Translations under genes and position numbers: made by a program
In this document: positions 18,562 to 43,637 of the stretch, one piece after another
How positions within the stretch are numbered: the first letter of the stretch is position 1
Layout of the letters: every line of letters starts with the position of its first letter
Source of the DNA: Kineosporia babensis
GTDB lineage: Bacteria; Actinomycetota; Actinomycetes; Actinomycetales; Kineosporiaceae
DNA length: 64,000 nucleotides
Assembly: GCF_021129305.1 (NCBI RefSeq)
Contig: NZ_JAJOMB010000001.1
Coordinates: 620,001-684,000, forward strand
Direction: 5' to 3'
Notes under the pieces: model-generated
Seen by the model: only the letters and a program-made list of their open reading frames with translations
Database searches by the model: none
Told to the model about the DNA's origin: nothing

Positions 18562-18585
18562 GTGTCATATCTGCGTAGGAGCAAC

Positions 18586-21500
18586 ATGCCCCGCACCGAC
18601 CGTCCGCTGGGCGGGGAGGACTCCGAACTCGTCCGGTTCGCGAGCGACTTACGGCAGTTGCGGGAAAAGGCCGGCCGGCCCAGCTATCGCGAACTGGCCA
18701 AGGGGGCGCACTACTCGGCCACGACGTTGTCGGACGCGGCCGGTGGGCGGCGGTTGCCGACCCTGGCGGTGGTTCAGGCTTTCGTCCGGGCCTGCGGCGG
18801 CAACGTGTCCGAGTGGGAAGAGCGCTGGCGGGAACTGGCCGGCCAACCGGCCGACAACGACTCTCCCGCACCCTATCCGGGCCTGGCGGCGCTCCAGGCC
18901 GAGGACGCCGACCGGTTTTTCGGACGCAGCGCCCTGGTCGAGGAGATCGTCTCGCGGCTGGGCCAGGAGCGGTTCCTGGCGGTCACCGGTGCTTCCGGAG
19001 TGGGCAAGTCGTCGCTGCTGCGGGCCGGGGTGATGGCCCGGCTGGGCACCGAGCGGCCGGTGGTGGTGCTGAGTCCGGGGGAACATCCGGTCGAACAATG
19101 GACGTCTCGGGTCGCCGGCCGCAGCGAGGCCGACCTCCTGGTTGTGGTGGACCAGTTCGAGGAGGTCTTCACGCTGTGCCCGGACCCGGGGCAGCGGGCC
19201 GAGTTCATCCGGCTGGTGACCGAGCCGTCCGGGCCCAGGGTTCTGCTCGGGCTGCGGCTGGACTTCCTGGCGCACTGCGCCGACCACGCCGAGCTGCGCG
19301 AGGCGTTGTACGGCCGGCAGGTGCTGGTCGGGGCGATGACCGCCGACGAGCTGCGGCAGGTGGTGGTGGGTCCGGCCGAGCGGGCCGGCTGCACGGTCGA
19401 GGGTCAGCTGGTGGCCGAGGTGGTGGCCGCGGCCGGAGGCCGGGCGGGGGTGTTGCCGCTGGTCTCGCACGCCCTGCGGGAGACCTGGCAGCGGCGTTCC
19501 GGGCGCACGCTGACCCTGGCCGGGTACCGAGAGGCCGGAGGCATCGAGGAGGCGCTGGCCCGCACCGCCGAGACGCTGTACACGTCGCTGACGCCCCGCC
19601 GGCAACGCCTCACCCGCGCTCTGATGCTGCGCCTGATCACCTTCGGCGACGGCGCCCAGGACACCCGCCGCCGGATCCGCCGCGACGAGCTGGACACCGC
19701 CGACGCGGACACCGACGCGGTGCTGCACCGGCTGGCCGAGGCCCGGCTGGTGACGCTGGACGCGTCCACTGTCGAGCTGACCCACGAGGCGCTGATCACC
19801 GCCTGGCCCCGGCTGCACAGCTGGCTGGCCAGTGACCGGGACGACCTGCGCACCCACCGCGCCGTGACCAACGCCGTGCAGATCTGGAAGGCGCACGGCC
19901 AGGACGAGGGTGCGCTGCTGCGCGGAGCCCGGTTGCTCAGCGCCCGGGAGCTGCCGGAGCGCGATACCGAACTCTCGCCCGAGGAACAGGCTTTCGTTCA
20001 GGCCAGCATCGACCTGGCGGCCCGGGAGAAGGAGTCGCTGCGGCGCCGGGAACTGCTGCTGCGCCGGCTGAGCGCCGGCCTGGTGGTCTCGCTGGTGGTG
20101 GTGCTGGCGGTCAGCCTGGTCGCGGTGCTGCAGTGGCGAGAAGCGGTGCAGGCCAAGCAGATCGCGATCTCCCGGCAGCTGGCGATCCAGGCGCCGACCT
20201 TGGCCAACTCCCGTCCCGACACCGCGATGCTGCTGGCGGTGCAGGCCTGGCAGACCGCGCCGACCGCCGAGGCTCGAGGCGCCCTGCTGAGCCTCTCCTC
20301 ACGCTCGGAGTACCGCGGCGAGTTCACCGCGCATGAGGCGGCGGTCTCGGAGGTGGCGCTTACCCCCGACGGCAAGACGCTGCTGACGGCCAGCCGGGAC
20401 AGCACCGTGGGGGTGTGGGACCTGTCCGCCCCGGGGTACCCGCGTTCCGCCTCCCTGACGGATCACCGCACCTGGCTGCGCGCGGTAGCTGTGAGCCCCG
20501 ACGGAACGATGGCGGCCACGGGCGGCGACGACCACACCGTCGTTCTGCGCGACCTACGTACGCGAGTTCGCAGCGCCGTACTGAACGGGCACAGCGGCGG
20601 GGTTCGCGACGTCGCCTTCAGCCCGGACAACTCCCTGCTGGCCAGTGCCGACGAGGACGGGGAGGTCGTGCTCTGGGACGTCACCCGGCGCAGTGAGTCG
20701 GCGCGGCTGTCCCCCGACGTCGGCTCGATCGGCACGGTGACGTTCAGCCCGGACGGCTCGCTGCTGGCGGTCGGTGGGCAGAAGGGCACGATCGAAATTT
20801 GGGACGTCCGTGGGCACCGAAGGGTTCGGGAGTTCACCGGCCACTCCGGGGAGGTCCGCGAGGTGCTCTTCGATCCCCGCGGCCGCTACCTGGCCTCGGC
20901 CGGGGACCTGACCGTCAAGCTCTGGAACGTCGAGGACTACGCCGACCCCCTGGTGCTGGCGGGGCACACCGACGAGGTGCGGACGCTGGCCTTCAGCCCG
21001 GACGGGACGGTCCTGGCCAGCGCGGGCATCGACCGTGACGTCCTGCTGTGGGACGTCGCCCGGGGTGTGCGCCAGGCCCGGCTGGCCGGGCACACCAACA
21101 ACGTCTACACCCTGGCCTTCAGCTCCAACACCCAGCTGGTCTCGTCCGGCGAGAGCGGTTCGGTGATCGTCTGGGACATCGCGCGGGCCTCCCCCACCGA
21201 GCTCGAGCCCAACGGCACCATCGACCTGGCCTACAGTCCGGACGGGCGCACCCTGGCGCAGGCGACCGGGAACCGGACGATCCTGTGGGACGCCCGGCAG
21301 CGGCTGCGCCGGGCCGAGCTGCCCGGGCCTTCCCTGGTGTACGCGGTGGCGTTCAGCCCGGACGGTGAACTCGTGGCCACCGCGCACGAGGACGGTGCGA
21401 TCGTCCTCTGGGATCTGTCCGACAACACCGAAGTGGCCCGCCTGGAGGGGCACGAGCTCGCCGTACTGGATCTCGCCTTCAGCCCCGACAGCAAGATGCT

Positions 21501-22164
21501 GGTCTCCGGCGGCGTGGACACCCTGGCGCTGGTCTGGGACGTGGACCAGAAGACGCGCCTGACCACGCTGGCTGCCCACGACGGCCCGGTCAACGGGGTC
21601 GCGTTCAGCCCGGACGGGAAGCGGGTCGCCACCGGTGGGCACGACAGCGCGGTGGTGCTTTGGGACGTGGAGGGCTGGTCCCCGCAGATCCGGCTGACTG
21701 GGCACACGGGCTGGGTACGTACGGTTTCGTTCAGCCCCGACGGCAAGACCATCGCCTCGTCCGCCAGCGACCTGACGGTGCGCTTGTGGGACGCGACCTC
21801 CGGGGAACCGCAGCAGACCCTCACGGGATATCTGGACTCCCAGTTCAGCGGGGTGGCGTTCAGCCCGGACGGCTCCCTGCTGGCGTTCACCGGCGGGGAG
21901 TCGACGATCTCGCTGTGGCATCTGGCTTCCCGGCAGACCTGGGCCCGGCTCTCCGGGCACACCAGTGAAGTACGCGCCCTGACGTTCAGCCCGGACTCCT
22001 CGACGCTGGTCAGTGCGGGCTCGGAGCTGGAGCCGGCGGTGCGGTTCTGGGACACCGATGCCGAGCGGGCGGCCGGGCGCATCTGCGCCGGTCTGGGCCG
22101 GGACCTGAGCACCGAGGAGCGCGACCAGTTCGGGCCCGGGCAGGACCGGGCGAACGTCTGCTGA
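18586..22164 (+). CDS. Membrane nSTAND NTPase with N-terminal HTH and 14 WD40 repeats
   Basis: Predicted signalling ATPase. Start is the ATG at 18586 with AGGAG 5 nt upstream; a GTG at 18562 is in frame but lacks a ribosome-binding site. The 1192-aa protein has an XRE/HTH-like region (residues ~14-80) and an nSTAND1-type NTPase with Walker A GASGVGKS (135-142) and Walker B VVVDQFEE (around Asp189). A winged-helix/helical region precedes a membrane helix (~494-516). Fourteen WD40 repeats (~579-1157), enough for two seven-bladed propellers, make up the rest. The family is widespread in actinobacteria with poorly known roles. It lies between fliL and fliM, which are normally adjacent. Confidence 0.93.
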   Translation: MPRTDRPLGGEDSELVRFASDLRQLREKAGRPSYRELAKGAHYSATTLSDAAGGRRLPTLAVVQAFVRACGGNVSEWEERWRELAGQPADNDSPAPYPGLAALQAEDADRFFGRSALVEEIVSRLGQERFLAVTGASGVGKSSLLRAGVMARLGTERPVVVLSPGEHPVEQWTSRVAGRSEADLLVVVDQFEEVFTLCPDPGQRAEFIRLVTEPSGPRVLLGLRLDFLAHCADHAELREALYGRQVLVGAMTADELRQVVVGPAERAGCTVEGQLVAEVVAAAGGRAGVLPLVSHALRETWQRRSGRTLTLAGYREAGGIEEALARTAETLYTSLTPRRQRLTRALMLRLITFGDGAQDTRRRIRRDELDTADADTDAVLHRLAEARLVTLDASTVELTHEALITAWPRLHSWLASDRDDLRTHRAVTNAVQIWKAHGQDEGALLRGARLLSARELPERDTELSPEEQAFVQASIDLAAREKESLRRRELLLRRLSAGLVVSLVVVLAVSLVAVLQWREAVQAKQIAISRQLAIQAPTLANSRPDTAMLLAVQAWQTAPTAEARGALLSLSSRSEYRGEFTAHEAAVSEVALTPDGKTLLTASRDSTVGVWDLSAPGYPRSASLTDHRTWLRAVAVSPDGTMAATGGDDHTVVLRDLRTRVRSAVLNGHSGGVRDVAFSPDNSLLASADEDGEVVLWDVTRRSESARLSPDVGSIGTVTFSPDGSLLAVGGQKGTIEIWDVRGHRRVREFTGHSGEVREVLFDPRGRYLASAGDLTVKLWNVEDYADPLVLAGHTDEVRTLAFSPDGTVLASAGIDRDVLLWDVARGVRQARLAGHTNNVYTLAFSSNTQLVSSGESGSVIVWDIARASPTELEPNGTIDLAYSPDGRTLAQATGNRTILWDARQRLRRAELPGPSLVYAVAFSPDGELVATAHEDGAIVLWDLSDNTEVARLEGHELAVLDLAFSPDSKMLVSGGVDTLALVWDVDQKTRLTTLAAHDGPVNGVAFSPDGKRVATGGHDSAVVLWDVEGWSPQIRLTGHTGWVRTVSFSPDGKTIASSASDLTVRLWDATSGEPQQTLTGYLDSQFSGVAFSPDGSLLAFTGGESTISLWHLASRQTWARLSGHTSEVRALTFSPDSSTLVSAGSELEPAVRFWDTDAERAAGRICAGLGRDLSTEERDQFGPGQDRANVC

Positions 22165-29043: not shown

Positions 29044-32000
29044 ATGCGTGTCTTGTCACGAACTAGCTCGAACCCGGACGGGGGTTCGCCTTTCGGCGGA
29101 CGTGCCCGATTCCGGCACCGACGAGGGGTTGCGCAGGTCGTCGCCGGCCTCCTCGTCGCCGGAGGTGGACTGCCGATGGCCGCCACCTCGGCATCCGCAT
29201 CACCCACGACGGTCCCTGCCTCTTCCGCGTTCTCGGCGGTGGGGAAGCCGTCGACGGTGAAGAAGAGTGCGACGGACGACAAGGACAAGAAGGACAGCAG
29301 GCTCAGCAAGAAGACCATCCGGGCCGCGGCGGACGGCTCAACCGGGGCCCTGGCCTACGGCGTGAAGACCACGGTGTCCCTGCTCGGGGCACCACTGGTC
29401 AACGTCAACGAGACGCCGAAGTCCGCCTGGCCGGCCGGACCACCTCAGGCCACCACCGCCAACATCGGGGTGCCCAACCTGCTGAGCACCGGCGAGGTGA
29501 CCACCACCGCTGAGGGCGACGACCTCAAGGACACCTCGAAGGCGACTTCCTCGGTCGCCGGACTGGGTACCGGCACCGGTCTCCAGGGCCTGCAGGGTGT
29601 GACCGCCGACGTGATCGGCTCCACCTGCATCGGCACCGCCGCCGGGGTCACCGCCACCTCGACCGTGACCGGGCTGAAGCTCGCCGGGGTCGCGAACACC
29701 ACGATCCCGACCAACCCGGCCCCGAACACGGTGCTGGACATCGCGATCGGCAAGCTGCACCTGAACGAGCAGACCAAGAGCACCGCCGGGGGCAAGACCA
29801 CGCTGGTCACCAACGCCCTGCGGCTGGAACTGCTCGGTGGCGCGCTGAGCGCGGTCGGCACGGGCGACGTGATCGCCGGGCACACCGAGTGCACCACCAC
29901 CGACGCACTGGTGCCGACCCTCACCGGCATCGCGCCGACCACCGGCCCGACCACCGGCGGCACCAGCGTGGTCCTGACCGGGACGAACTTCCGGGGCACC
30001 TCGAGCGTGAAGTTCGGCAGCACGGAAGCTGCTTACACGATCGACAGCACGACCAAGATCACCGCGTTCTCCCCGGCCGGCAGCGGCGCGCAGAACGTCA
30101 CGGTGACCACGCCGGGCACCACCGGTGGGACCAACACCGGCACCAACAACTTCACCTACGTCGGCGCGCCGACGGTGACGGGCGTGGCTCCATCGAACGG
30201 TCCACCGGGCGGCACGACTTCGGTGACCATCACCGGAACCGGCTTCAGCGGAACGGGAGTGGGGACGCCGACAGTCAAGTTCGGCAACACCAACGCCACC
30301 GGCGTGACTGTGAACAGTGCTAACTCGATCACCGCCAACGCCCCGGCCGGGACCGGCACGGTGTTCGTCACGGTGACCACCAACGCCGGGACGTCGGCCC
30401 AGGGGACTGCGAACCAGTACACCTACCAGGACGCGCTGGCGCTGACCTCGATCGCTCCGACATCGGGCCCGATCACCGGCGGTACGACGGTCACCGCGAC
30501 AGGTACCGGATTCACCGCTGACTCAGTGATCCAGTTCGGTACCACTGCCCTGTCGACCACCTACGTCAGCGACACGAAGCTGACCGCGGTGTCGCCGGCA
30601 GGTACCGGTACAGCGAACGTGACCGTCAAGCGAGGGACCCAGCCGGCCACCAGCCCGCAGGTCTTCACGTACAACGCCGTCCCAGTGGTTACGGGCCTCA
30701 GCGTGGCGACTGGTCCGGATACAGGTGGCACGACGGTGACCGTCAACGGCACCGGCCTGGCCGACGTCACCAACGTGACGATCGGCGGCAACTCGGCAAC
30801 GCCGTCCAACGTCACCGCCACCTCACTCCAGTTCACCACCCCGGCTCATGCGGCCGGAGCAGTGACGGTGTCGCTGACCAGCCCAAGCGGTACGGCCCCG
30901 GCGGGTGTGTTCCTGTACACCTCGACAGCTGCGCCCAGCGCGATCATCGTCACCGGCTTGGCCCCGAGCAGCGGGCCGTTGGCGGGAGGCGGCTCAGCGA
31001 CGCTGACAGGCACCTTCCTGACCGCTGGCAACACCGTGACGATCGGTGGAAAGAACGCCCCGGTCACCAACGAGGTTCCCGGCGCGCTGACGGGGACGAT
31101 CACCGTGACGGTCCCGCAGGGCGACGCCCCCGGAGCCGCCCCCGTGGTGGTCAGCAACGGTGGATCCAGCAGCCTGATCAGCCTGGCCAACACCTACACC
31201 TACACCGCCGCTACACCTACGGTTGGCAGCCTCTCACCGACCAATGGTCCCTCCACTGGCGGCACCGAAGTCACCGTCACGGGAACGGGATTCACCAGCG
31301 GGTCCGTCATCTACTGGGGCGCCATCCCCATGGTGACGACCTACGTGGACGGCACCACTCTGAAGTTCACCACCCCGCCCGGAACCGGCACTAACACCGT
31401 GACGGTTCGGACGAACGGCGGAACTGCCAGTAACGGTGCCACTTTCACATCCAACGCCATTCCGGTCGTCCTGACCATCAACCCGCTCACCGGCCCGGTG
31501 ACCGGCGGTACCACGGTCAACGTCACCGGCAGCAACCTCACCGCGATCAGCACGATCCAGGTCGGCAGCAAGACGGTGAACAAGAACTCGGGTGGCTCGG
31601 CAGGGGCCTTCTCGTTCGACACCCCGTCGAACAGCGCCGGGGCCTCGCTGATCACCTTCAACGTCTCGGGCGGCGGTACCGCGCTCACCCCGGGCACGTT
31701 CGTCTACACCCCGATCGCGGCCGGCGCCGCCACCGTGAACCCGACCAGCGGTCCGATCCAGGGCGGTAACCAGGTCACCATCACCGGTACCGGGTTCAGC
31801 TCGCTCCTGGCCCTGACCGTCGGCGGCAAGGTGGTCCCCGCCTCCGACTACACCGTCACCGGGGACACCACGCTCACCTTCACCATGCCGTCCGGCCTGA
31901 TCTCGGGCACCGTCCCGGTGATCATCGCCACCGCCGGCGGGATCGTGACCGTGAACTACACCTACAGCGCCTTCGACTCGGCCCTGATCCTCGGCATCTC

Positions 32001-33831
32001 GCCGATCACCGGGCCGACCACCGGCGGCACCCAGGTGACCATCACCGGTACCGGGTTCACCGGGGCGACCGGAGCCACGTTCGGCGGTACGCCGGGCACC
32101 GGCTTCAACGTCAACGCGGCCGGTACCCAGGTCACCGTGACCACCCCGGCCAAGGCCGCCGGTCTGGTCAACGTGGCGCTCACCAACGGGAGCGCGGCGA
32201 GCACCAGCACCGCGCTGTTCACCTACCTGGCTGCGAACCTCGGCCCGGTAGTCACCGGTCTCACGCCGGCCCTCGGCTCGGTGGCCGGTGGCAACCAGGT
32301 GACGATCTCCGGCAGCGGCTTCCTGCTCGCCACCGGCGTCACCTTCGGGGGCACCGCCGCGACGATCACTTCGCTGATCAACACGAACACCATCGTGGTG
32401 AACGCTCCGGCCCACGCGGTCGGTGAGGTGGACGTCGTCGTCACCACTCCGGTGGGCAGCAGCTCGGTGAGTGCTGACTCGAAGTACACCTACGTGGCGG
32501 CCAACGGCGTGCCGGTGGTCGACACCATGACGCCACGCAGCGGCCCGACCGGCGGTGGCACCACCGTGGTCTTCCGGGGCCTGGGCATGACCGGCGTCAA
32601 CCGGGTCACCTTCGACGGCACGGCGGCCACCGACCTCACGGTTGTGGACAACACCACGCTGACGCTGAAGACCCCGGCTCACACCGCCGGCGGCGTCCCG
32701 GTCATCCTGACCAACGCCAATGGGGCCAGCCGCTCGTACCTGTTCACCTACGTGCCGCTGTCGGGTCTGCCGACGGTGTCGGGTCTGACCCCGAACGTGG
32801 GGCCGGTCGCCGGTGGCACCGTGGTGACGATCAGCGGTACCGGGTTCGACTCGGCCACCACCGTCTCCTTCGACGGGGTGGAGGGCACCGACCTGGAGTT
32901 GGGTGTGGACATCGACGGCCCGGGCACCGCCCTGGAGACGTCCGGTGATGTGAGCCAGGCCGTCACCAAGGACGCCGGCCTGAAGGCGGTGGCCTACAAG
33001 CCGGCGCTGGCCAAGCGCGCGGTCGGCGAGATCAAGGCGGCCGCCTCCAACACCCTGAAGGTGACCACCCCGCCGCACGCCGGTGGCCCGACCACGGTGG
33101 TGGTGACCAACTCCGCAGGTTCGATCAGCTTCCTGCAGTCGTTCACCTTCATCCCGGTGCTGGCCGCGACCAGCACGATCAACACCCAGGTGGAGGTCGG
33201 CGCCAGCAAGCGGATCACTCCGCGGGGCCCGTCGTACTCCGGTATCGAGGTCACCGACTGCACCACGCCGGAAGGCCAGGGTTCGGTGCGGATCTCGGAC
33301 GACGAGAAGACCTGCCTGTACACGGCTCCGGACGACGAGGGTGACGACAGCTTCGTGATGTCGGTCATCGACGACCTGGGTCAGACCGCGGAGCAGACCG
33401 TGAACGTCGAGATCGTTGCCGAAGGTGGCACCGACCTTGGCGACGGAGGCGGCAACGACTCCGGCGACGGTGACGACGGCGGCACCGACCTCGGCGACGG
33501 GGGCGGCAACAGCTCCGGCGACGGTGACGACGGCGGCACCGGTTCCGGTGGCGAGGGCGGCAACGACACCGGAAGCGGCCTGGCCTTCACCGGTACCCCG
33601 CTGCTGCTGATCCCCGGCCTGGCTCTCGGCCTGGTGCTGGTCCTGATCGGAGCCGGCCTGCTCGGCGCCGAGCGGTTCCGGATCCGGCGCGGCGGCAGCC
33701 TGCGCGAGCCGGCCACCGACGAGGACGGGCGGCAGCTGATGCCGGCCGGCCTGTTCGGCCCGCAATCGCAGGACCAGGACCGTCTGCGCGACGAGGACGG
33801 CCCCAAACCCTCACCTGACGACGCGGCGTAA
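29044..33831 (+). CDS. Giant cell-wall-anchored adhesin with 12 IPT/TIG repeats and an LAFTG sorting signal
   Basis: Predicted surface protein of 1595 aa. It has a twin-basic/hydrophobic secretion signal (residues ~20-55 ending in SASAS), then a domain resembling choice-of-anchor P (~100-285; two Cys in STCIGTAAG and HTECTT). About 12 IPT/TIG immunoglobulin-like repeats follow (~290-1345), each opening with a pattern like TGIAPTTGPTTGGTSVVLTGTNF, then a short Ig-like module (~1380-1460). An Asp/Gly-rich spacer with two copies of a TDLGDGGGN-type unit leads to LAFTG (1513-1517), a hydrophobic helix and a basic tail. The LAxTG form fits class E sortases, and such a sortase gene starts 36 nt downstream. 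Confidence 0.93.
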   Translation: MRVLSRTSSNPDGGSPFGGRARFRHRRGVAQVVAGLLVAGGGLPMAATSASASPTTVPASSAFSAVGKPSTVKKSATDDKDKKDSRLSKKTIRAAADGSTGALAYGVKTTVSLLGAPLVNVNETPKSAWPAGPPQATTANIGVPNLLSTGEVTTTAEGDDLKDTSKATSSVAGLGTGTGLQGLQGVTADVIGSTCIGTAAGVTATSTVTGLKLAGVANTTIPTNPAPNTVLDIAIGKLHLNEQTKSTAGGKTTLVTNALRLELLGGALSAVGTGDVIAGHTECTTTDALVPTLTGIAPTTGPTTGGTSVVLTGTNFRGTSSVKFGSTEAAYTIDSTTKITAFSPAGSGAQNVTVTTPGTTGGTNTGTNNFTYVGAPTVTGVAPSNGPPGGTTSVTITGTGFSGTGVGTPTVKFGNTNATGVTVNSANSITANAPAGTGTVFVTVTTNAGTSAQGTANQYTYQDALALTSIAPTSGPITGGTTVTATGTGFTADSVIQFGTTALSTTYVSDTKLTAVSPAGTGTANVTVKRGTQPATSPQVFTYNAVPVVTGLSVATGPDTGGTTVTVNGTGLADVTNVTIGGNSATPSNVTATSLQFTTPAHAAGAVTVSLTSPSGTAPAGVFLYTSTAAPSAIIVTGLAPSSGPLAGGGSATLTGTFLTAGNTVTIGGKNAPVTNEVPGALTGTITVTVPQGDAPGAAPVVVSNGGSSSLISLANTYTYTAATPTVGSLSPTNGPSTGGTEVTVTGTGFTSGSVIYWGAIPMVTTYVDGTTLKFTTPPGTGTNTVTVRTNGGTASNGATFTSNAIPVVLTINPLTGPVTGGTTVNVTGSNLTAISTIQVGSKTVNKNSGGSAGAFSFDTPSNSAGASLITFNVSGGGTALTPGTFVYTPIAAGAATVNPTSGPIQGGNQVTITGTGFSSLLALTVGGKVVPASDYTVTGDTTLTFTMPSGLISGTVPVIIATAGGIVTVNYTYSAFDSALILGISPITGPTTGGTQVTITGTGFTGATGATFGGTPGTGFNVNAAGTQVTVTTPAKAAGLVNVALTNGSAASTSTALFTYLAANLGPVVTGLTPALGSVAGGNQVTISGSGFLLATGVTFGGTAATITSLINTNTIVVNAPAHAVGEVDVVVTTPVGSSSVSADSKYTYVAANGVPVVDTMTPRSGPTGGGTTVVFRGLGMTGVNRVTFDGTAATDLTVVDNTTLTLKTPAHTAGGVPVILTNANGASRSYLFTYVPLSGLPTVSGLTPNVGPVAGGTVVTISGTGFDSATTVSFDGVEGTDLELGVDIDGPGTALETSGDVSQAVTKDAGLKAVAYKPALAKRAVGEIKAAASNTLKVTTPPHAGGPTTVVVTNSAGSISFLQSFTFIPVLAATSTINTQVEVGASKRITPRGPSYSGIEVTDCTTPEGQGSVRISDDEKTCLYTAPDDEGDDSFVMSVIDDLGQTAEQTVNVEIVAEGGTDLGDGGGNDSGDGDDGGTDLGDGGGNSSGDGDDGGTGSGGEGGNDTGSGLAFTGTPLLLIPGLALGLVLVLIGAGLLGAERFRIRRGGSLREPATDEDGRQLMPAGLFGPQSQDQDRLRDEDGPKPSPDDAA

Positions 33832-33867: not shown

Positions 33868-34533
33868 GTGACATCGATGAGGCGGGCCCGCGGATCGCGG
33901 GTCCGCCTCATCGGTTTGTTGACCCTGGTCGTCGGCGTGCTGCTGACGGCCGGCGTCGGAGGCGGCTGGTGGTGGACGAATCATCAGGCCCGCAGCACCG
34001 CCCACGGGCTGGCCGACCGGGCCACCCAGGCGTTCACCTCCCCGATCGAGCACGGCCCGCGTACGGCTGTGATCCCGAAGGGCGTCAGCGGTCCGGTGGT
34101 CGCCGTGGTCAAGATCCCGAAGCTGGGCGTGGACTGGCGGATGCCGGTCGAACGGGGCACCGGGACCGAGATCCTGCGCCAGGGGCTGGGGATGTACGAC
34201 AGCAGCCCGGCGGTCGGCAAGCGCGGCAACGTCGGGATCGCCGGGCACCGCACCACCTGGGGAGCACCCTTCAAGGAGATCAACACGCTGGCCCGGGGAG
34301 ACCTGATCCAGGTCTGGACCACCCAGGGCCGGTTCGACTACAAGGTCACCGACACCGGGATCACGGTTCCGGCCGACGTCTCGGTGATCCAGCAGAAGAC
34401 CGCCCGGGGCCAGGCGATGCTCACCCTGACCACCTGCCACCCCGAGTTCTCGGCGACCGAGCGGCTGTACGTGCACGCCGTTCTGGCCGACTCGCTCCCC
34501 GCCCCCGCGAAGGCGAGATCCGCACCCGCCTGA
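33868..34533 (+). CDS. srtE: Class E sortase
   Basis: Membrane transpeptidase that joins LAxTG-type surface proteins to peptidoglycan. The 221-aa protein has an N-terminal membrane anchor (residues ~14-36), the catalytic His127 in GIAGHRTTWG, Cys190 in the TLTTCHP motif, and a downstream Arg in ERLYVHAVL. GAAAGG about 8 nt before the GTG supports the start. It lies directly after a protein with an LAFTG signal, its probable substrate. A strong hairpin follows. The pair interrupts the flhB-flhA order. Confidence 0.93.
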   Translation: MTSMRRARGSRVRLIGLLTLVVGVLLTAGVGGGWWWTNHQARSTAHGLADRATQAFTSPIEHGPRTAVIPKGVSGPVVAVVKIPKLGVDWRMPVERGTGTEILRQGLGMYDSSPAVGKRGNVGIAGHRTTWGAPFKEINTLARGDLIQVWTTQGRFDYKVTDTGITVPADVSVIQQKTARGQAMLTLTTCHPEFSATERLYVHAVLADSLPAPAKARSAPA

Positions 34534-34754: not shown

Positions 34755-34975
34755 TCGCTCCTCCGCCCGAAGGCGGTGCAATTCACTCGAACCGGGAACG
34801 GTTACACCAGGATGGCCAAAGGCCACCCGAAACAACGGTGTCCCAGCGACTTTGACAGGTGATGGACAGCAGGCAACCAGACGGTGATACCTGGCCGCTC
34901 AGCAATCGCCGCAGGTTCGCCCGGTCGGCAGAGCGTCGCAGCACGGCGACGAACCGCAGCGTTCCCCCGATCGGC

Positions 34976-35003
34976 TCAAGTGCCCGGAAGCCAGGGCCGA
35001 TGT
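34976..35003 (+). promoter_or_regulatory. Putative FliA-type promoter for flhA
   Basis: TCAA (34976-34979), N16, GCCGATGT (34996-35003), with a predicted start near 35009, about 58 nt before the GTG of flhA. It supports flhA having its own flagellar-sigma promoter after the adhesin-sortase interruption. Confidence 0.65.
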
Positions 35004-35066
35004 GAGCAACAGCCACGGATGGCCGAACCACCCCCTCGTCTGCACCCCTCGCCGGAGGTCGCCCCC

Positions 35067-37142
35067 GTGCCGTCCAATCGGTTGACGCGTATCGCCATCC
35101 CGGTGGCGATCGTGATCGTCGTGCTCATGATGGTCGTGCCGCTGCCGGCCGCCCTGCTGGACGTGCTGCTGGCCCTGAACATCGGGGTCAGCCTGATCGT
35201 CCTGCTGGTCGCGCTGCAGGTGAAGCGGGTTCTCGACTTCGCCATCTTCCCGACCGTGGTGCTGGTGGCGACCATCTTCCGGCTCGCGCTGAACGTCAGC
35301 TCGACCCGGCTGGTGCTGCGCGACGGCTTCGCCGGGCACGTGATCGAGGCCTTCGGTCACATCGTGATCGGGTCCAACCTGATCATCGGTCTGGTCATCT
35401 TCGCCATCCTGATCATCATCCAGCTGGTCGTGGTCACCAACGGTGCGGCCCGGGTCGCCGAGGTCGGCGCCCGGTTCACCCTGGACGCGATGCCGGGCAA
35501 GCAGATGGCGATCGACGCCGACCTGAACTCCGGCCTGATCGACGAGGACACCGCCCGTCAGCGCCGTAAAGACGTTGCGGCCGAGGCAGACTTCTACGGC
35601 GCGATGGACGGTGGCACCAAGTTCGTCAAGGGCGACGCCATGGCCGCCATCATCATCACCCTGGTCAACCTGATCGGTGGCTTCGCGATCGGCATGCTGC
35701 AGCGCGGCATGCCGGCCGGGGAGGCGATCCAGACCTACAGCCTGCTCAGCGTCGGTGACGGCCTGGTCTCGCAGATCCCGGCGCTGCTGATGTCGGTGGC
35801 CACCGGTGTGATCGTGACCCGCTCGACCGGGGCCGGGGATGTCGGTACCGACCTGATCCAGCAGCTCGGCCGCAACCGCCAGGCGCTGATGATCGGCGGC
35901 GGCTCGCTGATCGGGCTGTGCCTGATCCCGGGCATGCCCAAGGTCCCGTTCCTGATCGTCGGCGGCCTGGTGCTGTTCCTGGCCTTCCGGGCCAACGACG
36001 CCTCGATGGACGACGAGCCCACCACCTCGGCCGCCTCCGGTGCCATCGCGATGCCCTCGGGGCAGGTGGCGATGCCGGCCGGCACGGGCACCGGGGACCC
36101 GGTCACCGACTCGCTCCGGGTCGACCCGCTGGAACTGCTGCTCTCCCCCGACGCGGTCGACCTGGTCGACACCGCCCGCGGCGGAGACCTGCTGGACCGA
36201 GTGCGGGCCCTGCGCCGCAAGACCGCCCTGGACCTGGGCCTGGTGCTGCCGCCGGTGCGTACCCGGGACGGCGCGATGCTGGCTCCGGGCACCTACGAGA
36301 TCCGGATCGGTGGCAGCAGCGTGGCCACCGGCGAGGCCCCGCCCGGGCACCTGCTGGCGATCGGCGACTCGATGGACGGCCTGCCCGGCCGCCACACCAC
36401 CGAGCCGGTGTTCGGCCTGCCCGCGGTCTGGGTCCCGATCGAGTACCGCGCCTCGGCTGAACTGGCCGGCGCCACCATCGTCGAGCGTGCGGCTGTGGTC
36501 ACCACCCACCTGGCCGAGATGGTCCGGCAGAACGCGTCCCGGCTGCTCAGCCTGGACGACACCCGCGACCTGCTCGAGGTGCTCAAGGGTGACCGGCCGG
36601 CTGCGGTCGAGGAACTGGTGCCGGCCGTGCTGCCGCTCTCGGCGGTGCAGCGGCTGCTCCAGGGCCTGCTCGACGAGCAGGTCTCGATCCGCGACCTCGG
36701 CCGGGTGCTGGAGGGCGTGGGCCAGCGGGCGCGCACCTCCAACGACCCGGACGCCCTGCTCGAGGCCGCCCGCTCGGCCCTCGGCCCGGCCCTGGCGGCG
36801 CAGTACGTACGCGACGGCGTGCTGCGTGCGATCACCCTCGAACCCGCGGTCGAGACCCAGATCGGCGAGGCCCTGCGCGCCGGTGAGCAAGGCGTCGTGA
36901 TCGCGCTCGACCCGGTCCAGGCCCAGCGCCTGGTCGCGGACATCTCTTCTCTGCAGACCGCTGCCGAACAGCGTGGTGAGCTGCCGGTCCTGCTGATCTC
37001 CGGACCCCTGCGGCTGCCCATGCGGCGGCTGCTGCGCGGTTCGCTGCCCCAGCTGCCCGTCATCGCCTTCACCGAGGCGACCGGCATTCACCAGATCGAG
37101 ACCGTCGGACAGGTGAGTAGTAGTCATGAATTTGCTTCTTGA
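35067..37142 (+). CDS. flhA: Flagellar export gate protein FlhA
   Basis: Proton-driven export-gate component with a cytoplasmic ring. GTG 35067 is preferred because GGAGGT lies 8 nt upstream and the length (691 aa) matches the family; an ATG at 35019 is an alternative. It has about eight membrane helices in residues ~10-310, the FHIPEP-family region (VVTNGAARVAEVGARFTLDAMPGKQMAIDADLN, DEDTARQRRKDVAAEADFYGAMDG) and a full C-terminal cytoplasmic domain (residues ~340-691). The FlhF-like gene starts inside its last 17 bases. Confidence 0.96.
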   Translation: MPSNRLTRIAIPVAIVIVVLMMVVPLPAALLDVLLALNIGVSLIVLLVALQVKRVLDFAIFPTVVLVATIFRLALNVSSTRLVLRDGFAGHVIEAFGHIVIGSNLIIGLVIFAILIIIQLVVVTNGAARVAEVGARFTLDAMPGKQMAIDADLNSGLIDEDTARQRRKDVAAEADFYGAMDGGTKFVKGDAMAAIIITLVNLIGGFAIGMLQRGMPAGEAIQTYSLLSVGDGLVSQIPALLMSVATGVIVTRSTGAGDVGTDLIQQLGRNRQALMIGGGSLIGLCLIPGMPKVPFLIVGGLVLFLAFRANDASMDDEPTTSAASGAIAMPSGQVAMPAGTGTGDPVTDSLRVDPLELLLSPDAVDLVDTARGGDLLDRVRALRRKTALDLGLVLPPVRTRDGAMLAPGTYEIRIGGSSVATGEAPPGHLLAIGDSMDGLPGRHTTEPVFGLPAVWVPIEYRASAELAGATIVERAAVVTTHLAEMVRQNASRLLSLDDTRDLLEVLKGDRPAAVEELVPAVLPLSAVQRLLQGLLDEQVSIRDLGRVLEGVGQRARTSNDPDALLEAARSALGPALAAQYVRDGVLRAITLEPAVETQIGEALRAGEQGVVIALDPVQAQRLVADISSLQTAAEQRGELPVLLISGPLRLPMRRLLRGSLPQLPVIAFTEATGIHQIETVGQVSSSHEFAS

Positions 37143-40100
37143 AGGTGACGACCTCGAGGCCCTGCTGATCCGGGCACGCCGCGAGGGTGGGCCGTTCGCC
37201 CGTATCGTCCGTGCGGAAAAAGTTCGCAGAGGTGGGATATTCGGCTTCTTCGCGAAAGAGGCGTTCGAGGTGGTGGTCGAGGCCCCGGGCGGGCTCGACG
37301 ACGATGAGCTGTCGTTGCCGGCCAGCCTGCCACCGGCCCGGATGCTGCCCGAACGCTCCGGGGCACGCGACCTCCTTACCCTGGCACAGCTGGCCGCGGG
37401 ACGGAAAAATATTGGCGGCCAGGGTAGTTCGGTGGACAAGGAGACCGCGCTGGCGATGGCCCGGCAGGCTGCGTTCGAGGCCGCAATGGCTTCCGACGAG
37501 TACTCGCCGATCCTGGATCTGCCGGTGGCGACGCGTCGGGGGCCGTCGTTCGACCCGTACGGGCAGGACGAGTTCCGCGAAACCTTGGATCTGACCGAGG
37601 TTCTAGGCACTCGCGGCTCCTCTTCCGAGGACTGGGACGAGCGTCTTGCCGATCAAGGGCAAGAGCAGAACCAGAGGACGCGGGGCCGCACCGTTCGGGG
37701 TGGCCGCCGGGGAGTTGGTCGGTCGGCGAGAGAGGCCGATGCCTTCGCTGAGGCCACGCATCCTGCTGCGGGTGGGCGGGCGGCTCGGGCTGCGCGCCTG
37801 GCCGAGATCGAGGCCGAGCAAGCTGCCGAAGTGGCCCGCCTGGCCGAGGAATCCCGGGCGGAGGAAGCTTTCCGGGCTGAAGAAGCTTTACATGCCGAAG
37901 AGGCGCTGAAGGCCGAGGAGGCCCTTAAGGCCGAAGTGGCCTTGCGGGCGCAGGAAGCCTTGCAGGCCGAGGAAGCGCGGCGAGCTGACGAGGCTGCGCA
38001 GGCCGAGGAGGCGCGGCGGGCGGAAGAAGCGCTGCGTGCGGAAGAGGCCCTGCGCGCCGACGAAGCCCTGCGCGCGGAGGAAGCTCTGCTGGCCGCAGAA
38101 GCGCTGAAGGCCGAGGAGGCCCTTAAGGCCGAAGAAGCCTTGCGGGCACAGGAAGCCTTGCAGACTGAAGAAGCTGCGCGCGCTGCGGAGGCCGACGAGC
38201 GTGAGGCGGCGCGGCGGGCTGAGGAAGCCGAGCTGGAGCGGGAAGCCCGGATCGCGGCCCGTGCCGAGGAGATCCGGGCCGAGCGGGCAGCAAAGGCAGC
38301 TCGCACGGCCAAGGCCAAGGCGGCAAAGGCGGCGGCCCGGGCTGCAGCTCGGTCGGCGGCGAAGGTTGCCCGTCAGACGGCCCGCAAGCAGGCCGTGGCG
38401 ACGAAGAAGGCCGAGAAGGAAGCGGCGGCGCGGTCGGCCGAGGGCAGGGCAGCAGACGTAACGGCCCAGCCGGGTGCCGACCGGGTGGTCGACCTCGAAG
38501 GGATCAGCGTCCGCACTTCCGGTGCCCCGAATCGTCCCAACGCGATCGAGGTCGACGAGGTGGAGGGCGTCTGGATCGCCACCTCGACGGACCAGGAACC
38601 CCAAGCCGCCAAGCCCGTCGCCCCGGTCCCCGCTGTCCCGTCCACCGAAATGGCCAAGCGCCGCCCACGCAAGGCTGCCCGCAAGGCCGCCCGCCAGATC
38701 GAGATCCCCGAGCCCGCGGCGCCGATGGCCGACGAGAACAACAGTGCCGGAGCCGAACTCGACTTCAGCCGACTGCGCCCGGCCTGGACACGTCCACGCA
38801 ACTCACGACCTTCCGCCCGAAAGCGGTCGCTGTTCAACGACCTGCTCACCGACGATCGGCCGGGCATCCGGGTGGAAGTGACCTCTGAGCCGCCGTTCGG
38901 GGGACAGTCCGCTCAAGCCCACGCGGCGCCGCCGCTCAACACCGACGAGGTTTCTTCCGATCCATCGACCGTGAGGGACATTCCAAAGCTTCTCCCGCTT
39001 CCCCCCAAGGCCCGCTCCGGCGATACCGGCCGCGGGTCTGCGGGTGACTCCACCGGGGCGTCCTCCGAATCGTCATCAGGCAACTCCGGGCAGGGGAACA
39101 CTGCGGCGCCCAGTGAAGACCAGGCTGCCGCACCTGCCTCGGCCACCCCCATCCCGACCCAGCCCGTGTCCCCCTTCGACGAGCCTCCCGCGGAAGCCGA
39201 GTCCGACAGCTCCGAGGCAGACCTCATCGCAAAGTGGGCAGACCCCACCGGCCCGGGCAGCCTGGTGACCCCGCCTGTGCCAGCAATTCCGGCTCCGTAC
39301 GTCCCGGCCGATCCGACCGCTCAGGCTGCGTCGACTGCCCCAGACACCACGACCGCTCCGACCGGTTCGACACCTCCGGTCAGCCCGCCGGCGCCGTCCG
39401 GTTGGGCGACTGCAGCCACTGCGACAACGGCGGCCGACCCGACAACTGCGCCTGTCCCGACAACTGCGCCCAGTCCGACGGCTCCGGCTGATTGGCTGAG
39501 CGCGGCCGACTCGACGGCATTGGCTGACTCGACGGCACCGGCTCACTGGTTGGGCGCCGCCGACTCGACGGCGCCGGACGCCTCAGCTGCTCCGGTCTAC
39601 CCGCCCAGCGACCAGCCCGATGCGACAGCGCATTGGGCGCAGCCGCCGGCCGCAGACCCGCAGTTCGAAATCCCGAAGCTGGCCCCGGCAACACCGGTCG
39701 CACCGATGCCGCCGATCCCGGCCGTGCCGAGCTTCGCACCGGAAGCACTGGCCGAGCAGGCCCAGCCACTACCGCCTGAGCAGTTCGGGGCGTACGAAGG
39801 TGCGGTCGAGTTCAGCCAGCCCGACGCGTCCTCTGGTGCTGCTCGTCCCGAATCGGATTTGGCCTACGGACAGCCGGATGCGCCGTCCCCGTTCGCCGGA
39901 TTCGAGGCGCCTTCCCCCTTCACCCAGCCCGATTCCGCCCAGCCCGAATTCGCCCAAGCCGACTCAGCCCAGCCCGAATTCGCCCAGCCCGGCTCAGCCC
40001 AGCCTGACTCAGCCCAGCCCTACAACCAGGTCGCCCCCGCAAGCTGGGCCGCGCCTCTTCCCGGCCAAGGCGACTCGGCGATCACGTCTCCGTGGGCCAC

Positions 40101-43100
40101 ACCGGCGTCCCCGGGGGCAACAAACCCCACGCCGTTCAACGCGCCGCCCGCCAACGCGACCCCGGCCAACCCAACACCCGTCAACACCGCACCGGCCAGC
40201 CCCGTCCCCACAAGTCCGTCGACTGAGCTCAGCGCGTTGGCCGCCACCGCCCCGCGCGCCACGACGGTCCTACCCAAGAGCAAGACCCGCCGCTCGAAGA
40301 AGAACGTGCCGATCCAAAGGACAACACAAGTGGTCAACCCCGCGCCGCTCCAACCTGCCGCGCAGAACGTGCCAACTCCCGCAACGCCGCCCGAGCAGGC
40401 CGTCCCCGCTGAGACCACGCCAGGGGAAGAGTCCGGCCGTCACCGTCCGCGGCGCGACCGCAGCCGCGCTCGCCACACCGGTCCGGGCACTGACCCCTCG
40501 CTGGGTTCTCCCGACGGGGCCAGTCCGCTTGCGCCCCTGTCGGCCGCCCGCGCGGAGGTAGAGACACCGGCCGAGGGTGGGTTCAAGCTGTTCGGCATTC
40601 GCTTCGGTGGCAAGAAGAAGAAAACAAAGGACGCATCAACTCCCCAATCGTTCCAAGCCCACACATCGGCGGTCGAGGGCTCAGCGAACCCGGCAGCCGC
40701 CCCGATCCCGGCGCAGTACCCGGGCAGCACGGGCCTGGGCAACCCGGCGATGGCCAGCGCGGCCTGGGCCCGAGAGCCCGTGAGCGAGGGCGACTCCGAT
40801 GAAGGCAACTCCAGTACGGGCACTCCGCCCGTCGGGAACGCACCCTTGGCAAGCAGTGAAACGGCCAAAACGGGCACGGTCAGCGCGGTTACAAGTGACC
40901 CGACGCTAGGCAACTCGAACTGGGGCACGGCACCTGCCGCTGATCCGTCCACGGGTGCCGGGGCCACTGGTGCTCCGTCCGCCAGTAACAGCCTGGGCAA
41001 TCCGGCGGTGGCTGGTCCCACGACAAGTAACCCGGCCATCGGAGGCCACGAGACGTCGGCGCCCATGCCGCGACCCGACGCGTCCAGCGAGGCCGCCGCC
41101 GGCCATCCACCCGCGTGGGAAGTCATGGCGGCCCGGGCAAGCAGTGCCGCCACCGCTGGTGAAGTGTCCGCAGCCGAGGCGGTAATGGCCGCGAACCAGA
41201 CAGCAGACGCTCCGGGCGCCGATGTTGGTCCCGTCGGCGAAGCGCACCTGAGCACCGAAACAGACCTGGGTTCCGAGGCAGGTCTGGGTTCCGGGGCAGG
41301 CCTAGTTTCCGAAACAGGCCTGAGGTCCGGGGCAGGCACAGGTTCCGAAACAGGCCTGGGTTCCAGCGCCGACACAGGCTCCGGTACAGACCTAGGTTCC
41401 GGTACAGACCTAGGTTCCGGTACAGACCTAGGTTCCGGTACAGACCTAGGTTCCGGAGCAGGCCTGGGTTCCGGAGCAGGCACGGGCTCCGAAACAGGCC
41501 TGGGTGCCGGGGCAGGCATAAGCTCCGGTACAGGCCTGGGTTCCGGGACAAGTCTGGGTTCCGAGACTGGTCTGGGTTCCGAGACTGGTCTGGGTTCCGA
41601 GACTGGTCTGGGTTCCGAGACTGGTCTGGGTTATGAAGTGGACCTGGGTTACGAAGCTGGTCTGGGCTACGAGGCATCCCTCGGCTACGGAGCAGACCTG
41701 GGCTACGAAGCAAGTACTGGTTACGAAGCGGGCCTGGGCTACGGAGCGGACCTCGGTTACGAAGCAGGTCCAGGCTCGGAGCACGGCACTGGCCTTGAAA
41801 AGGCTACGAACACCGAGGCAGATGTGAGCGCCGAGACAAGCGCCAGCTTCGGAACGGATGCTGGTCTCGCCGCGGGCGAAGATGCCCCGAACTACCCATT
41901 CGCAGAAGCGCTTCCAACCGCTGCGCCGGATCAGAGCGCGGCAGCGAAGACGAGCACCACCCCTCAGCCCGTCTTCGCTGACCACGAAGTCCAGTTCCTC
42001 GCACCGAGTCTGCCCGCCCCAAGCACCTCCCCGGAACAGAGCCAGACCGCCGGCCTTCAGCTCGACACCGCCCGACCGACCGAGAGTCCCAGCGCAGAGG
42101 TGACCGACATGAGCGCGCAGTCCATCGTTCCTGCGCAGGCCATCGTTCCGGCCCAACCCGGGGCGCCCGAGACCGAAAACGCTCCATCCGGAACCATCAC
42201 GGCCGAAACTGTGACTGCCGAAACCGTGACGGCTGAAACCGCAACAACCGAGAGCGTCTCGCCCTGGGACGTCCCGACCGACGACGACCCCGCCTGGGCC
42301 AACCCGACCGACACGAACAACCCAGCCAACTCAGCCAACTCAGCCAACCCCGCTGAACCGGCCAACCCGGAGTTCGACGAGAACCAGCCCGTGACCGCCT
42401 GGGCGTTCCAGCCCGACCCGGCCCCGGCGTCCTCAATTTCGGAAGCGGACCACCCCGGCCCCGAGACGTTCGAGCACGAACCGCCGTTGCCCGTCCCGAC
42501 CGCCCCGCTGTCCCTGACCGACTTCCTGATCAGCCACGCCACCAGCCACCCCGAAAGCCCCGAGAACCCCGAGAGCCCCAACAACCCAACCCCCACCGAG
42601 CAGCAAGAACACCAGATCAGCGACCGCTCGGCCGAGTTCGACCATGCCTTCGACTTCGAGCAGGTGCGCGCGGGCGTCCAGGCCGGTCTGGAGACCGCCG
42701 AGCGGATCGCCGCGGGCCTGGCCCTGGCGTCGGACAAGCTGGCCCTGACCAATCTTGGCGTGCCGGCCGACTGGGCCGCCAACCTGCCGCTCGGAGACCG
42801 GTTCATGGCCGTGGTCGAGATGCTCGCCGAGATGCCGGAGGTGAGCATCTCCGAGGACATCGAGGTGGTCGCGGTGGTCGGCCCGCCCGAGGTGGTCGGC
42901 CTCGAAGCCGCCCGCACCGCAGTGGATCTGCCGCACAACGGTGGCCCGCGGATGGTGGTCACGATCCCGCACGAGGTGGGCCCGGACCGGCTCGACGCGA
43001 TGAACCTGGTCGCCGCGATCCGTCCGGTGGTGGTCAGCATCCCGATCACTGCCGAGAGTGCCGAAGAAGCCGAGAAGATCCGCGGCGTGGTGCAGAACGT

Positions 43101-43344
43101 CAAGGCCGAGGCGGTGATCGCGGTGCTCGACGGCACCCGGTCGATGGCCGACAACCAGCGCTGGATGGAGTATCTGGGCAAGGTCGACGCAGTTGCCGTG
43201 GACGGTGTGCTGCACTCCGGCGCGCCGGCCGCGGTGATGGCCCTGGGCATTCCCGTGGTCCGCCTGGACGGCACGCCCGTCGACCGGATCGGCTGGGCCG
43301 CGCTGCTGTGCACCCAGCTCGCGGTGGGTGGCGCGACCTCGTGA
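37126..43344 (+). CDS. Giant FlhF-like protein (2072 aa) with repeat-rich centre and degenerate GTPase-like C-terminus
   Basis: It occupies the flhF position after flhA, overlapping it by 17 nt. Residues 1-60 resemble the FlhF N-terminus (DDLEALLIRARREGGPFARIV, then GGIFGFFAKEAFEVVVEA). Residues 245-352 are 18 tandem hexads of AEEALK/AEEALR type, then a very basic Ala/Lys/Arg helix (~375-445). A Pro/Ala/Ser/Thr-rich region follows, with pentapeptide QPDSA/QPEFA repeats (about 934-965) and 30 tandem hexads of LGSETG type (1376-1555). The last ~225 residues (1846-2072) are ordinary globular sequence resembling the FlhF SRP-GTPase in layout. Its P-loop position reads GPPEVVGLEAA (1919-1929), with no GKT. 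Ordinary FlhF is about 350-450 aa, so loss of GTPase activity is likely. Confidence 0.85.
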   Translation: MNLLLEGDDLEALLIRARREGGPFARIVRAEKVRRGGIFGFFAKEAFEVVVEAPGGLDDDELSLPASLPPARMLPERSGARDLLTLAQLAAGRKNIGGQGSSVDKETALAMARQAAFEAAMASDEYSPILDLPVATRRGPSFDPYGQDEFRETLDLTEVLGTRGSSSEDWDERLADQGQEQNQRTRGRTVRGGRRGVGRSAREADAFAEATHPAAGGRAARAARLAEIEAEQAAEVARLAEESRAEEAFRAEEALHAEEALKAEEALKAEVALRAQEALQAEEARRADEAAQAEEARRAEEALRAEEALRADEALRAEEALLAAEALKAEEALKAEEALRAQEALQTEEAARAAEADEREAARRAEEAELEREARIAARAEEIRAERAAKAARTAKAKAAKAAARAAARSAAKVARQTARKQAVATKKAEKEAAARSAEGRAADVTAQPGADRVVDLEGISVRTSGAPNRPNAIEVDEVEGVWIATSTDQEPQAAKPVAPVPAVPSTEMAKRRPRKAARKAARQIEIPEPAAPMADENNSAGAELDFSRLRPAWTRPRNSRPSARKRSLFNDLLTDDRPGIRVEVTSEPPFGGQSAQAHAAPPLNTDEVSSDPSTVRDIPKLLPLPPKARSGDTGRGSAGDSTGASSESSSGNSGQGNTAAPSEDQAAAPASATPIPTQPVSPFDEPPAEAESDSSEADLIAKWADPTGPGSLVTPPVPAIPAPYVPADPTAQAASTAPDTTTAPTGSTPPVSPPAPSGWATAATATTAADPTTAPVPTTAPSPTAPADWLSAADSTALADSTAPAHWLGAADSTAPDASAAPVYPPSDQPDATAHWAQPPAADPQFEIPKLAPATPVAPMPPIPAVPSFAPEALAEQAQPLPPEQFGAYEGAVEFSQPDASSGAARPESDLAYGQPDAPSPFAGFEAPSPFTQPDSAQPEFAQADSAQPEFAQPGSAQPDSAQPYNQVAPASWAAPLPGQGDSAITSPWATPASPGATNPTPFNAPPANATPANPTPVNTAPASPVPTSPSTELSALAATAPRATTVLPKSKTRRSKKNVPIQRTTQVVNPAPLQPAAQNVPTPATPPEQAVPAETTPGEESGRHRPRRDRSRARHTGPGTDPSLGSPDGASPLAPLSAARAEVETPAEGGFKLFGIRFGGKKKKTKDASTPQSFQAHTSAVEGSANPAAAPIPAQYPGSTGLGNPAMASAAWAREPVSEGDSDEGNSSTGTPPVGNAPLASSETAKTGTVSAVTSDPTLGNSNWGTAPAADPSTGAGATGAPSASNSLGNPAVAGPTTSNPAIGGHETSAPMPRPDASSEAAAGHPPAWEVMAARASSAATAGEVSAAEAVMAANQTADAPGADVGPVGEAHLSTETDLGSEAGLGSGAGLVSETGLRSGAGTGSETGLGSSADTGSGTDLGSGTDLGSGTDLGSGTDLGSGAGLGSGAGTGSETGLGAGAGISSGTGLGSGTSLGSETGLGSETGLGSETGLGSETGLGYEVDLGYEAGLGYEASLGYGADLGYEASTGYEAGLGYGADLGYEAGPGSEHGTGLEKATNTEADVSAETSASFGTDAGLAAGEDAPNYPFAEALPTAAPDQSAAAKTSTTPQPVFADHEVQFLAPSLPAPSTSPEQSQTAGLQLDTARPTESPSAEVTDMSAQSIVPAQAIVPAQPGAPETENAPSGTITAETVTAETVTAETATTESVSPWDVPTDDDPAWANPTDTNNPANSANSANPAEPANPEFDENQPVTAWAFQPDPAPASSISEADHPGPETFEHEPPLPVPTAPLSLTDFLISHATSHPESPENPESPNNPTPTEQQEHQISDRSAEFDHAFDFEQVRAGVQAGLETAERIAAGLALASDKLALTNLGVPADWAANLPLGDRFMAVVEMLAEMPEVSISEDIEVVAVVGPPEVVGLEAARTAVDLPHNGGPRMVVTIPHEVGPDRLDAMNLVAAIRPVVVSIPITAESAEEAEKIRGVVQNVKAEAVIAVLDGTRSMADNQRWMEYLGKVDAVAVDGVLHSGAPAAVMALGIPVVRLDGTPVDRIGWAALLCTQLAVGGATS
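37858..38181 (+). repeat. 18 tandem 18-bp repeats coding AEEALK-type hexads
   Basis: Eighteen consecutive degenerate 18-bp units inside the FlhF-like gene encode hexads such as AEEALK, AEEALR, AQEALQ and ADEALR (residues 245-352). They should form one long Glu/Ala/Lys/Arg helix. Confidence 0.9.
39925..40014 (+). repeat. Six tandem 15-bp repeats coding QPDSA/QPEFA
   Basis: Six consecutive pentapeptide units (QPDSA, QPEFA, QADSA, QPEFA, QPGSA, QPDSA) lie inside the FlhF-like gene. Confidence 0.85.
41251..41790 (+). repeat. 30 tandem 18-bp repeats coding LGSETG-type hexads
   Basis: Thirty uninterrupted 18-bp units encode hexads such as GSETGL, GSGTDL and GYEAGL. Two blocks are nearly exact at DNA level: about four copies of GGTTCCGGTACAGACCTA (41395-41455) and about four of GGTTCCGAGACTGGTCTG (41558-41630), indicating recent slippage or unequal exchange. 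Confidence 0.95.
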
Positions 43345-43637
43345 AGCCGCTGCTGGTCGGCTGCGCGATCGCGGCCGTGCTGGCGGGCCCGTCACTCTAT
43401 GCCCAGTACGCGGGGGGCGGACTCGACGGCGAGACCGCCCTCACCCGCTATCTGATCATGGCCGTGTTCTGCTCCATCGGCGCCGCGCTGATCCTGATGC
43501 TGATGGCGCGGTACCAGAAGGAGTGGGAGGCCAAGGACGAGGAAGAGGCCCGGGAGGCGGCCCAGAGCGCGGCCGAAGCCGACGCCCGGCGGGCCGCCGA
43601 AGAAGCCGAGGCCCGCCGCTCAGGCCAGCCCACCTGA
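43341..43637 (+). CDS. Small membrane protein coupled to the FlhF-like gene
   Basis: Start is the GTG at 43341, overlapping the preceding stop in GTGA, so it is translationally coupled. The 98-aa protein has two membrane helices (residues ~3-22 and ~38-62; MAVFCSIGAALILMLMA) and a charged Glu/Ala/Arg cytoplasmic tail (~63-98). The family is not recognised. As the last gene of the flhA unit, it could anchor or partner the FlhF-like protein. It converges on nadE, with only 18 bp between stops. Confidence 0.8.
   Translation: MKPLLVGCAIAAVLAGPSLYAQYAGGGLDGETALTRYLIMAVFCSIGAALILMLMARYQKEWEAKDEEEAREAAQSAAEADARRAAEEAEARRSGQPT

Follow-up and report, generated by a model that had tools for sequence, protein, structure and literature searches.

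Many flagellation patterns have been described as being set by FlhF and FlhG, acting together as a conserved switch (PMC12826062). The N-terminal domain of Shewanella FlhF holds FliG, allows its contact with FliF and keeps FliM/FliN off, and a new round has been proposed to begin with FlhG-stimulated hydrolysis (PMC11236974). A survey from 2023, which employed BLASTP/PSI-BLAST at 1e-5 complemented by SMART and HHpred checks, states that actinobacterial classes without FlgF/FlgG also lack FlhF, and the legend of its Fig. 6 gives the FlgFG-losing lineage as Acidimicrobiia, Nitriliruptoria and Actinomycetia (PMC10746217). A paper on Kineococcus radiotolerans places flhA at 1673 and csrA at 1677 and makes no mention of FlhF (PMC2587704). 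In the open-licence literature, judged by titles and abstract openings, we found no report of an actinobacterial FlhF or of one devoid of its guanosine triphosphate (GTP) site. Here we describe a gene from the motile soil actinobacterium Kineosporia babensis, located in a 64,000-nucleotide (nt) window of contig NZ_JAJOMB010000001.1 (all positions are window positions), that lies in the place of flhF and encodes a 2072-residue protein with an FlhF-type N-domain and an NG-fold C-domain that carries neither the GKT of the P-loop nor the G4 motif.

The window holds a flagellar cluster of the 9.4 Mb genome, with fliK-, fliM-, fliO-, fliP-, fliR- and flhB-type genes upstream of flhA; further cluster genes, including what we take to be fliG, were named from their translated sequences. 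The gene is an intact open reading frame (ORF) that runs from an ATG to a stop codon and starts 17 nt inside the 3' end of flhA, an overlap that a first-pass annotation of the window had already described.

34884–37142, forward strand: flhA, the syntenic anchor (FHIPEP, PF00771, E = 4.8e-239)
37126–43344, forward strand: flhF ortholog without a GTP site, 2072 residues (ORF and homology)
37126–37293, forward strand: N-domain, residues 1–56, similar to the FlhF FliG-interaction domain (TIGR03499, profile match and model of the relative L215)
42637–43341, forward strand: NG-like C-domain, residues 1838–2072 (AlphaFold2, Foldseek and VIA-align)
42880–42912, forward strand: lost P-loop position, GPPEVVGLEAA, starting at residue 1919, with no GKT
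43183–43236, forward strand: lost G4 motif region, DGVLH here versus TKLDE in FlhF (alignment)

A Pfam scan of the full 2072-residue protein gave no family at E ≤ 1, and the protein falls below the curated cut-off of the FlhF model TIGR03499 (174.15 bits), reaching 15.9 bits in the genome search and 20 bits with the N-domain. The same model matches residues 6–54 at E = 5.6e-4. Profile-profile comparison of the N-domain yielded E = 2.4e-11 against 13 GKT-bearing actinobacterial FlhF and 4.1e-13 against 26 (in the GKT-bearing profiles, 4 of 17 rows, being near-identical, were left out). An hmmsearch of the N-domain profile against PDB sequences gave unrelated weak matches only (best E = 0.062). 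The predicted model of L215, a compact relative, shows a beta-alpha-beta-beta N-domain; the Shewanella FliG-interaction domain is described as having one helix and three antiparallel strands (PMC11236974). The N-domain is under strong constraint: the ratio of nonsynonymous to synonymous substitution rates (dN/dS) was 0.04–0.12 for the N-domain, 0.34–0.49 for the C-domain and 0.45–0.62 for the linker, whose alignment is poor, in four of five comparisons (L024 was left out).

The C-domain, of which approximately 205–215 residues are ordered, was modelled by AlphaFold2 with a predicted local distance difference test score (pLDDT) of 94.4, and adopts the NG fold of signal recognition particle (SRP) GTPases, including the N-terminal helices; Foldseek placed FlhF (8r9r) at rank 2. 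Its profile matched GKT-bearing FlhF at E = 9.4e-8 with a score of 61.0, and at E = 5.2e-9 when 26 FlhF were used. As controls for the former, the highest score among 200 column shuffles was 22.3, and a 13-sequence FtsY-like profile scored 28.5. For the compact full-length relatives, the profile match to GKT-bearing FlhF is collinear (E = 7.8e-20). In the sister clade (families f32, f63, f51, f55 and f57) the C-domain comparison is weak (E = 0.0045), and our claim there is thus limited to the N-domain and the lack of GKT. The likeness to FlhF (TIGR03499; PDB 8R9R, 2PX0, 2PX3) lies in the order of N-domain, linker and NG domain, in the NG fold and in the place behind flhA, and the FlhF ancestry suggested in the first-pass annotation is upheld by the N-domain, the controlled C-domain profile, the fold and the gene position. 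Neither of the refuting outcomes named in that annotation was borne out: the C-domain fold is not an unrelated one, and no other FlhF above the cut-off turned up among the genome candidates scored (150 of 201).

The protein differs from FlhF in lacking GKT, in the replacement of G4, in a G domain that the alignment shows to be shortened, in the absence of FlhG from the locus and in a linker of approximately 1,800 residues. No P-loop of the form GxxxxGK[S/T] and no TKLD motif are present in it, and the altered P-loop sequence reads as first annotated. In an alignment of 30 GKT and 39 GKT-less proteins the P-loop lysine is absent from all 39 GKT-less rows, and the G4 aspartate is present in 30/30 GKT proteins versus 5/39 GKT-less ones; since the P-loop itself was the criterion for choosing the rows, only the G4 count is independent. 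At the level of sequence, loss of the nucleotide site in the giant protein is supported. A canonical flhF elsewhere in the genome was rejected: among the 150 of 201 candidates scored, none exceeded the TIGR03499 cut-off, and the best matches, at 64.6 and 32.9 bits, are, we presume from their motifs, the separate FtsY-like and Ffh-like genes of the genome. These FtsY and Ffh keep GKT, unlike the giant protein. The 64-kb window holds no MinD-type (FlhG) motif, and the genome gave only partial FlhG matches (the strongest with E = 6.1e-9 and 28% identity), with DQAxxL in none of the five that bear the motif.

The GKT-less counterpart is widespread. Searches for the C-terminus detected it in 12 of the family's 13 genomes and in 60 of 297 of the order (E ≤ 0.01; mostly 9 candidates scored per genome), and the C-terminus of the window protein, as sole query in genome contigs, returned no relative. 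The flhA end was present in 46 of 51 fetched stretches which, together with the window, gave 47 flhA-adjacent genes, each being the longest of the ORFs whose start lies at −70 to +200 of the flhA stop. They start −47 to +4 nt relative to that stop (45/47 before it), and a P-loop was seen in 0/47; TIGR03499 matched 43/47 of their N-domains at E ≤ 1 (best 4.6e-9). In the 47-member C-domain set, L073, L077, L080 and L086 were left out because of divergent ends. An N-domain alignment as query on species genomes gave 290 relatives, of which the 80 listed underlie the counts of named relatives. Seventy-nine of these lie behind flhA, the remaining stretch ending short of it, and a P-loop was found in 0/67 complete members and in none of the 80; this set and the 47-gene set share genomes. 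One of the 67, L143, was left out of the set derived from them because its C-terminus looks frameshifted. GKT-less FlhF lies behind flhA in Kineosporia, Kineococcus, Cellulomonas, Demequina, Actinoplanes, Actinokineospora, Actinomadura and others; the matches listed also include Sanguibacter, Actinotalea, Micromonospora, Planomonospora, Spirillospora, Acidothermus and metagenome bins. The GKT-bearing flhF of basal actinobacteria has the same position behind flhA.

FlhA was detected in 63 of the 396 Actinomycetota genomes drawn, and the N-domain model matched 42 of the 396, all within those 63. Behind flhA, the 63 genomes (counting the window and L050) carry a GKT gene in 30 cases and a GKT-less one in 20, with 7 showing no FlhF-like gene in the available stretch (only 0.65–2 kb behind flhA for 4 of the 7) and 6 unclassed. 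In a tree of 72 FlhA rows (29 GKT; 30 GKT-less, including 11 named; 7 none; 6 unknown), obtained by quick search with a midpoint root and including 13 rows of unusual composition, one change separates GKT from GKT-less, and the GKT-less side has a Shimodaira-Hasegawa-like approximate likelihood ratio test (SH-aLRT) value of 100; G568, with too short an extract, and G592, not entered, were left out. This single change applies to GKT versus GKT-less alone: counted on all four labels, 7 changes are required for the GKT-less group and 10 for the labels together, since 'none' and 'unknown' rows are interspersed. The published FlgFG-losing lineage fits the GKT-less side of this tree, not all genomes of which can be assigned to classes.

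Downstream of FlhF, an FlhG bearing the DQAxxLR motif was seen in 14/17 of the first (basal-type) GKT loci, in 0/14 later GKT loci (1.3–4.5 kb behind flhA) and in 0/80 listed GKT-less loci, 63 of which extend at least 2 kb behind the gene; two motif matches there were judged by eye to be FlhB. Several GKT lineages without FlhG have altered G3 and G4 (DTPPL, SHMDA). L285, L291, L296, L297, L302 and L310 encode GKT FlhF with altered G3/G4 and no FlhG seen nearby, and look like intermediates towards the GTP-site-less protein; L285, L296 and L310 resemble the latter in their place behind flhA, their N-domain and an FlhG unseen in the stretch, but keep the P-loop. Since FlhG is unseen and G3/G4 are altered where GKT is still kept, the data suggest an order in which FlhG left the locus, the motifs eroded and the P-loop then went. 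Two flagellated genomes of the same order (L351 and L352, from G028 and G077) showed no FlhF-like gene in 4.5 kb behind flhA and no ORF with the GG..GFF motif in 10 kb, a possible secondary loss.

What sets Kineosporia apart is size. Gigantism consists of linker expansion and is seen only in the genus of the window, where six genomes encode intact proteins of 1873–2368 residues, in line with the 2072 residues of the first-pass annotation; among the other 65 complete listed members (K. mesophila and K. rhizophila excluded) the median length is 440 residues and the longest protein has 1027. The record of Kineosporia sp. R_H_3 (L197; 797 residues) falls in another genus than that of the window. 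The first-pass annotation had proposed a pseudo-GTPase turned into a giant scaffold: the loss of the nucleotide site stands, as far as sequence can tell, but its tie to gigantism does not, since the loss is common to a large actinobacterial group with compact proteins. A role as scaffold or in placement is presumptive. The repeats that it had noticed were recovered by Tandem Repeats Finder in 22 rows, some overlapping, including an 18-bp unit with 20.7 copies at 41260–41632 and Ala/Glu-coding 18-bp units within 37954–38174. They are species-specific: the giant protein has 16 AEEA-type and 10 GLG[S/Y] motifs, versus 0–3 and 0 in the five other members of the genus. The main features of the linker are as follows.

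37444–37512, forward strand: conserved island, residues 107–129 (98% identity over 112–124 in six genomes of the genus)
37762–38460, forward strand: Ala/Glu/Arg-rich tract without long Pro/Gly runs, residues 213–445 (233 residues), built in part of 18-bp repeats and probably forming a long helix
38953–39006, forward strand: conserved island, residues 610–627 (91% identity over 609–630)
40576–40629, forward strand: basic island, residues 1151–1168, partly conserved (genus comparison)
41260–41770, forward strand: 18-bp tandem repeats coding GLGS/GLGY, in this species only among the six (repeat finding and motif counts)

The computations show an FlhF-type N-domain, an NG-fold C-domain without GKT and G4, a place behind flhA and one change from GKT to GKT-less on the FlhA tree. 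We read the gene, with rather more confidence than doubt, as an flhF ortholog by position that was turned into a GTP-site-less protein, and infer that this protein acts as a nucleotide-free tether. A constant tether is proposed because the FliG-holding and perhaps the docking parts are kept, and the GTP site and its activator are lost. In such a scheme the N-domain would hold FliG and thereby gather FliF-FliG, and the NG-like domain would dock on the membrane or on a polar partner; as FlhG is gone from the locus and no hydrolysis step is left for a reset, handover to FliM/FliN would take place by competition. In Kineosporia, the linker of approximately 1,800 residues could extend the reach of the protein, and it carries short conserved motifs. 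Two points weigh against this view: in P. aeruginosa, the interaction with FliG is regulated by GTP binding (PMC12713375), and no landmark is known in the present system.

The strong constraint on the N-domain, far above that on the C-domain, is also what would be expected of a FliG chaperone or ring-assembly factor with no role in placement, in which function would rest with the N-domain alone and the NG-like domain would be a vestige in slow decay. The hardly matchable C-terminus of the sister clade fits such decay, and the observation that in E. coli FliG is stable only together with FlhF (PMC11236974) fits a chaperone; we nonetheless regard this account as rather unlikely, given that members across the class-level set retain the C-domain, its fold confidently predicted and its motifs conserved. 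Continued but altered binding of a nucleotide or some other ligand by the C-domain, which would leave the protein a switch, is suggested by the Rossmann-like core, intact in the model, and by the first P-loop glycine, kept in 39/39 GKT-less rows and invariant across 67 rows, but the missing P-loop lysine (39/39) and G4 aspartate (34/39) make it improbable.

An unrelated Rossmann-like domain could have been joined to an FlhF N-domain, and indeed hmmsearch of the C-domain profile against PDB sequences returned unrelated weak matches only (best E = 0.018). The full-length collinear profile match, the shuffle and FtsY controls and an NG-type fold with its N-terminal helices make this very improbable, and an unrelated fold was rejected on the basis of fold and profile controls. 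Against the C-domain profile, FtsY-like proteins score far below FlhF (28.5 versus 61.0), and in sequence the protein is not nearer to FtsY or Ffh than to FlhF. An assembly or frame artefact, to which a third-position G+C of 0.76 versus approximately 0.9 in neighbouring flagellar genes and the repetitive linker might point, has a negligible probability and was rejected because five other genomes of the genus carry intact counterparts.

On a wider scale, we tentatively propose that, contrary to the published loss, FlhF was retained in the later actinobacterial classes and, once its activator FlhG had gone, underwent a single conversion into a nucleotide-free assembly tether. If true, the GTP cycle of FlhF would be dispensable for building a flagellum, with FliG capture as the core task, and the tether of approximately 2,000 residues in Kineosporia zoospores could perhaps serve to collect FliF-FliG over a large expanse of membrane or to keep several motors together. 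An FlhF body, position and N-domain kept without the nucleotide site offer a natural experiment on the purpose of the GTP cycle, and in our view the published claim that FlhF is missing from later actinobacterial classes (PMC10746217) needs revision. Actinoplanes, Cellulomonas and other motile actinobacteria gain an unstudied candidate gene.

A small ORF overlaps the 3' end of the giant gene, and its product is a possible partner of the giant protein.

43308–43637, forward strand: ORF of 109 residues with a hydrophobic N-terminal half, candidate partner

Pfam gave no match for it, and a similar sequence was present at 5 of 11 loci tested, namely Kineosporia and near relatives. Between flhB and flhA, the window also encodes a 1595-residue protein with many TIG/IPT domains (29044–33831) and a sortase (33868–34533), a surface protein system lodged inside the flagellar cluster, with similar genes at the loci of K. 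mesophila and K. rhizophila and none found at the 9 others tested. Further upstream, before fliM and still within the cluster, lies a gene for a 1200-residue nSTAND1 nucleoside triphosphatase with a WD40 propeller (18562–22164).

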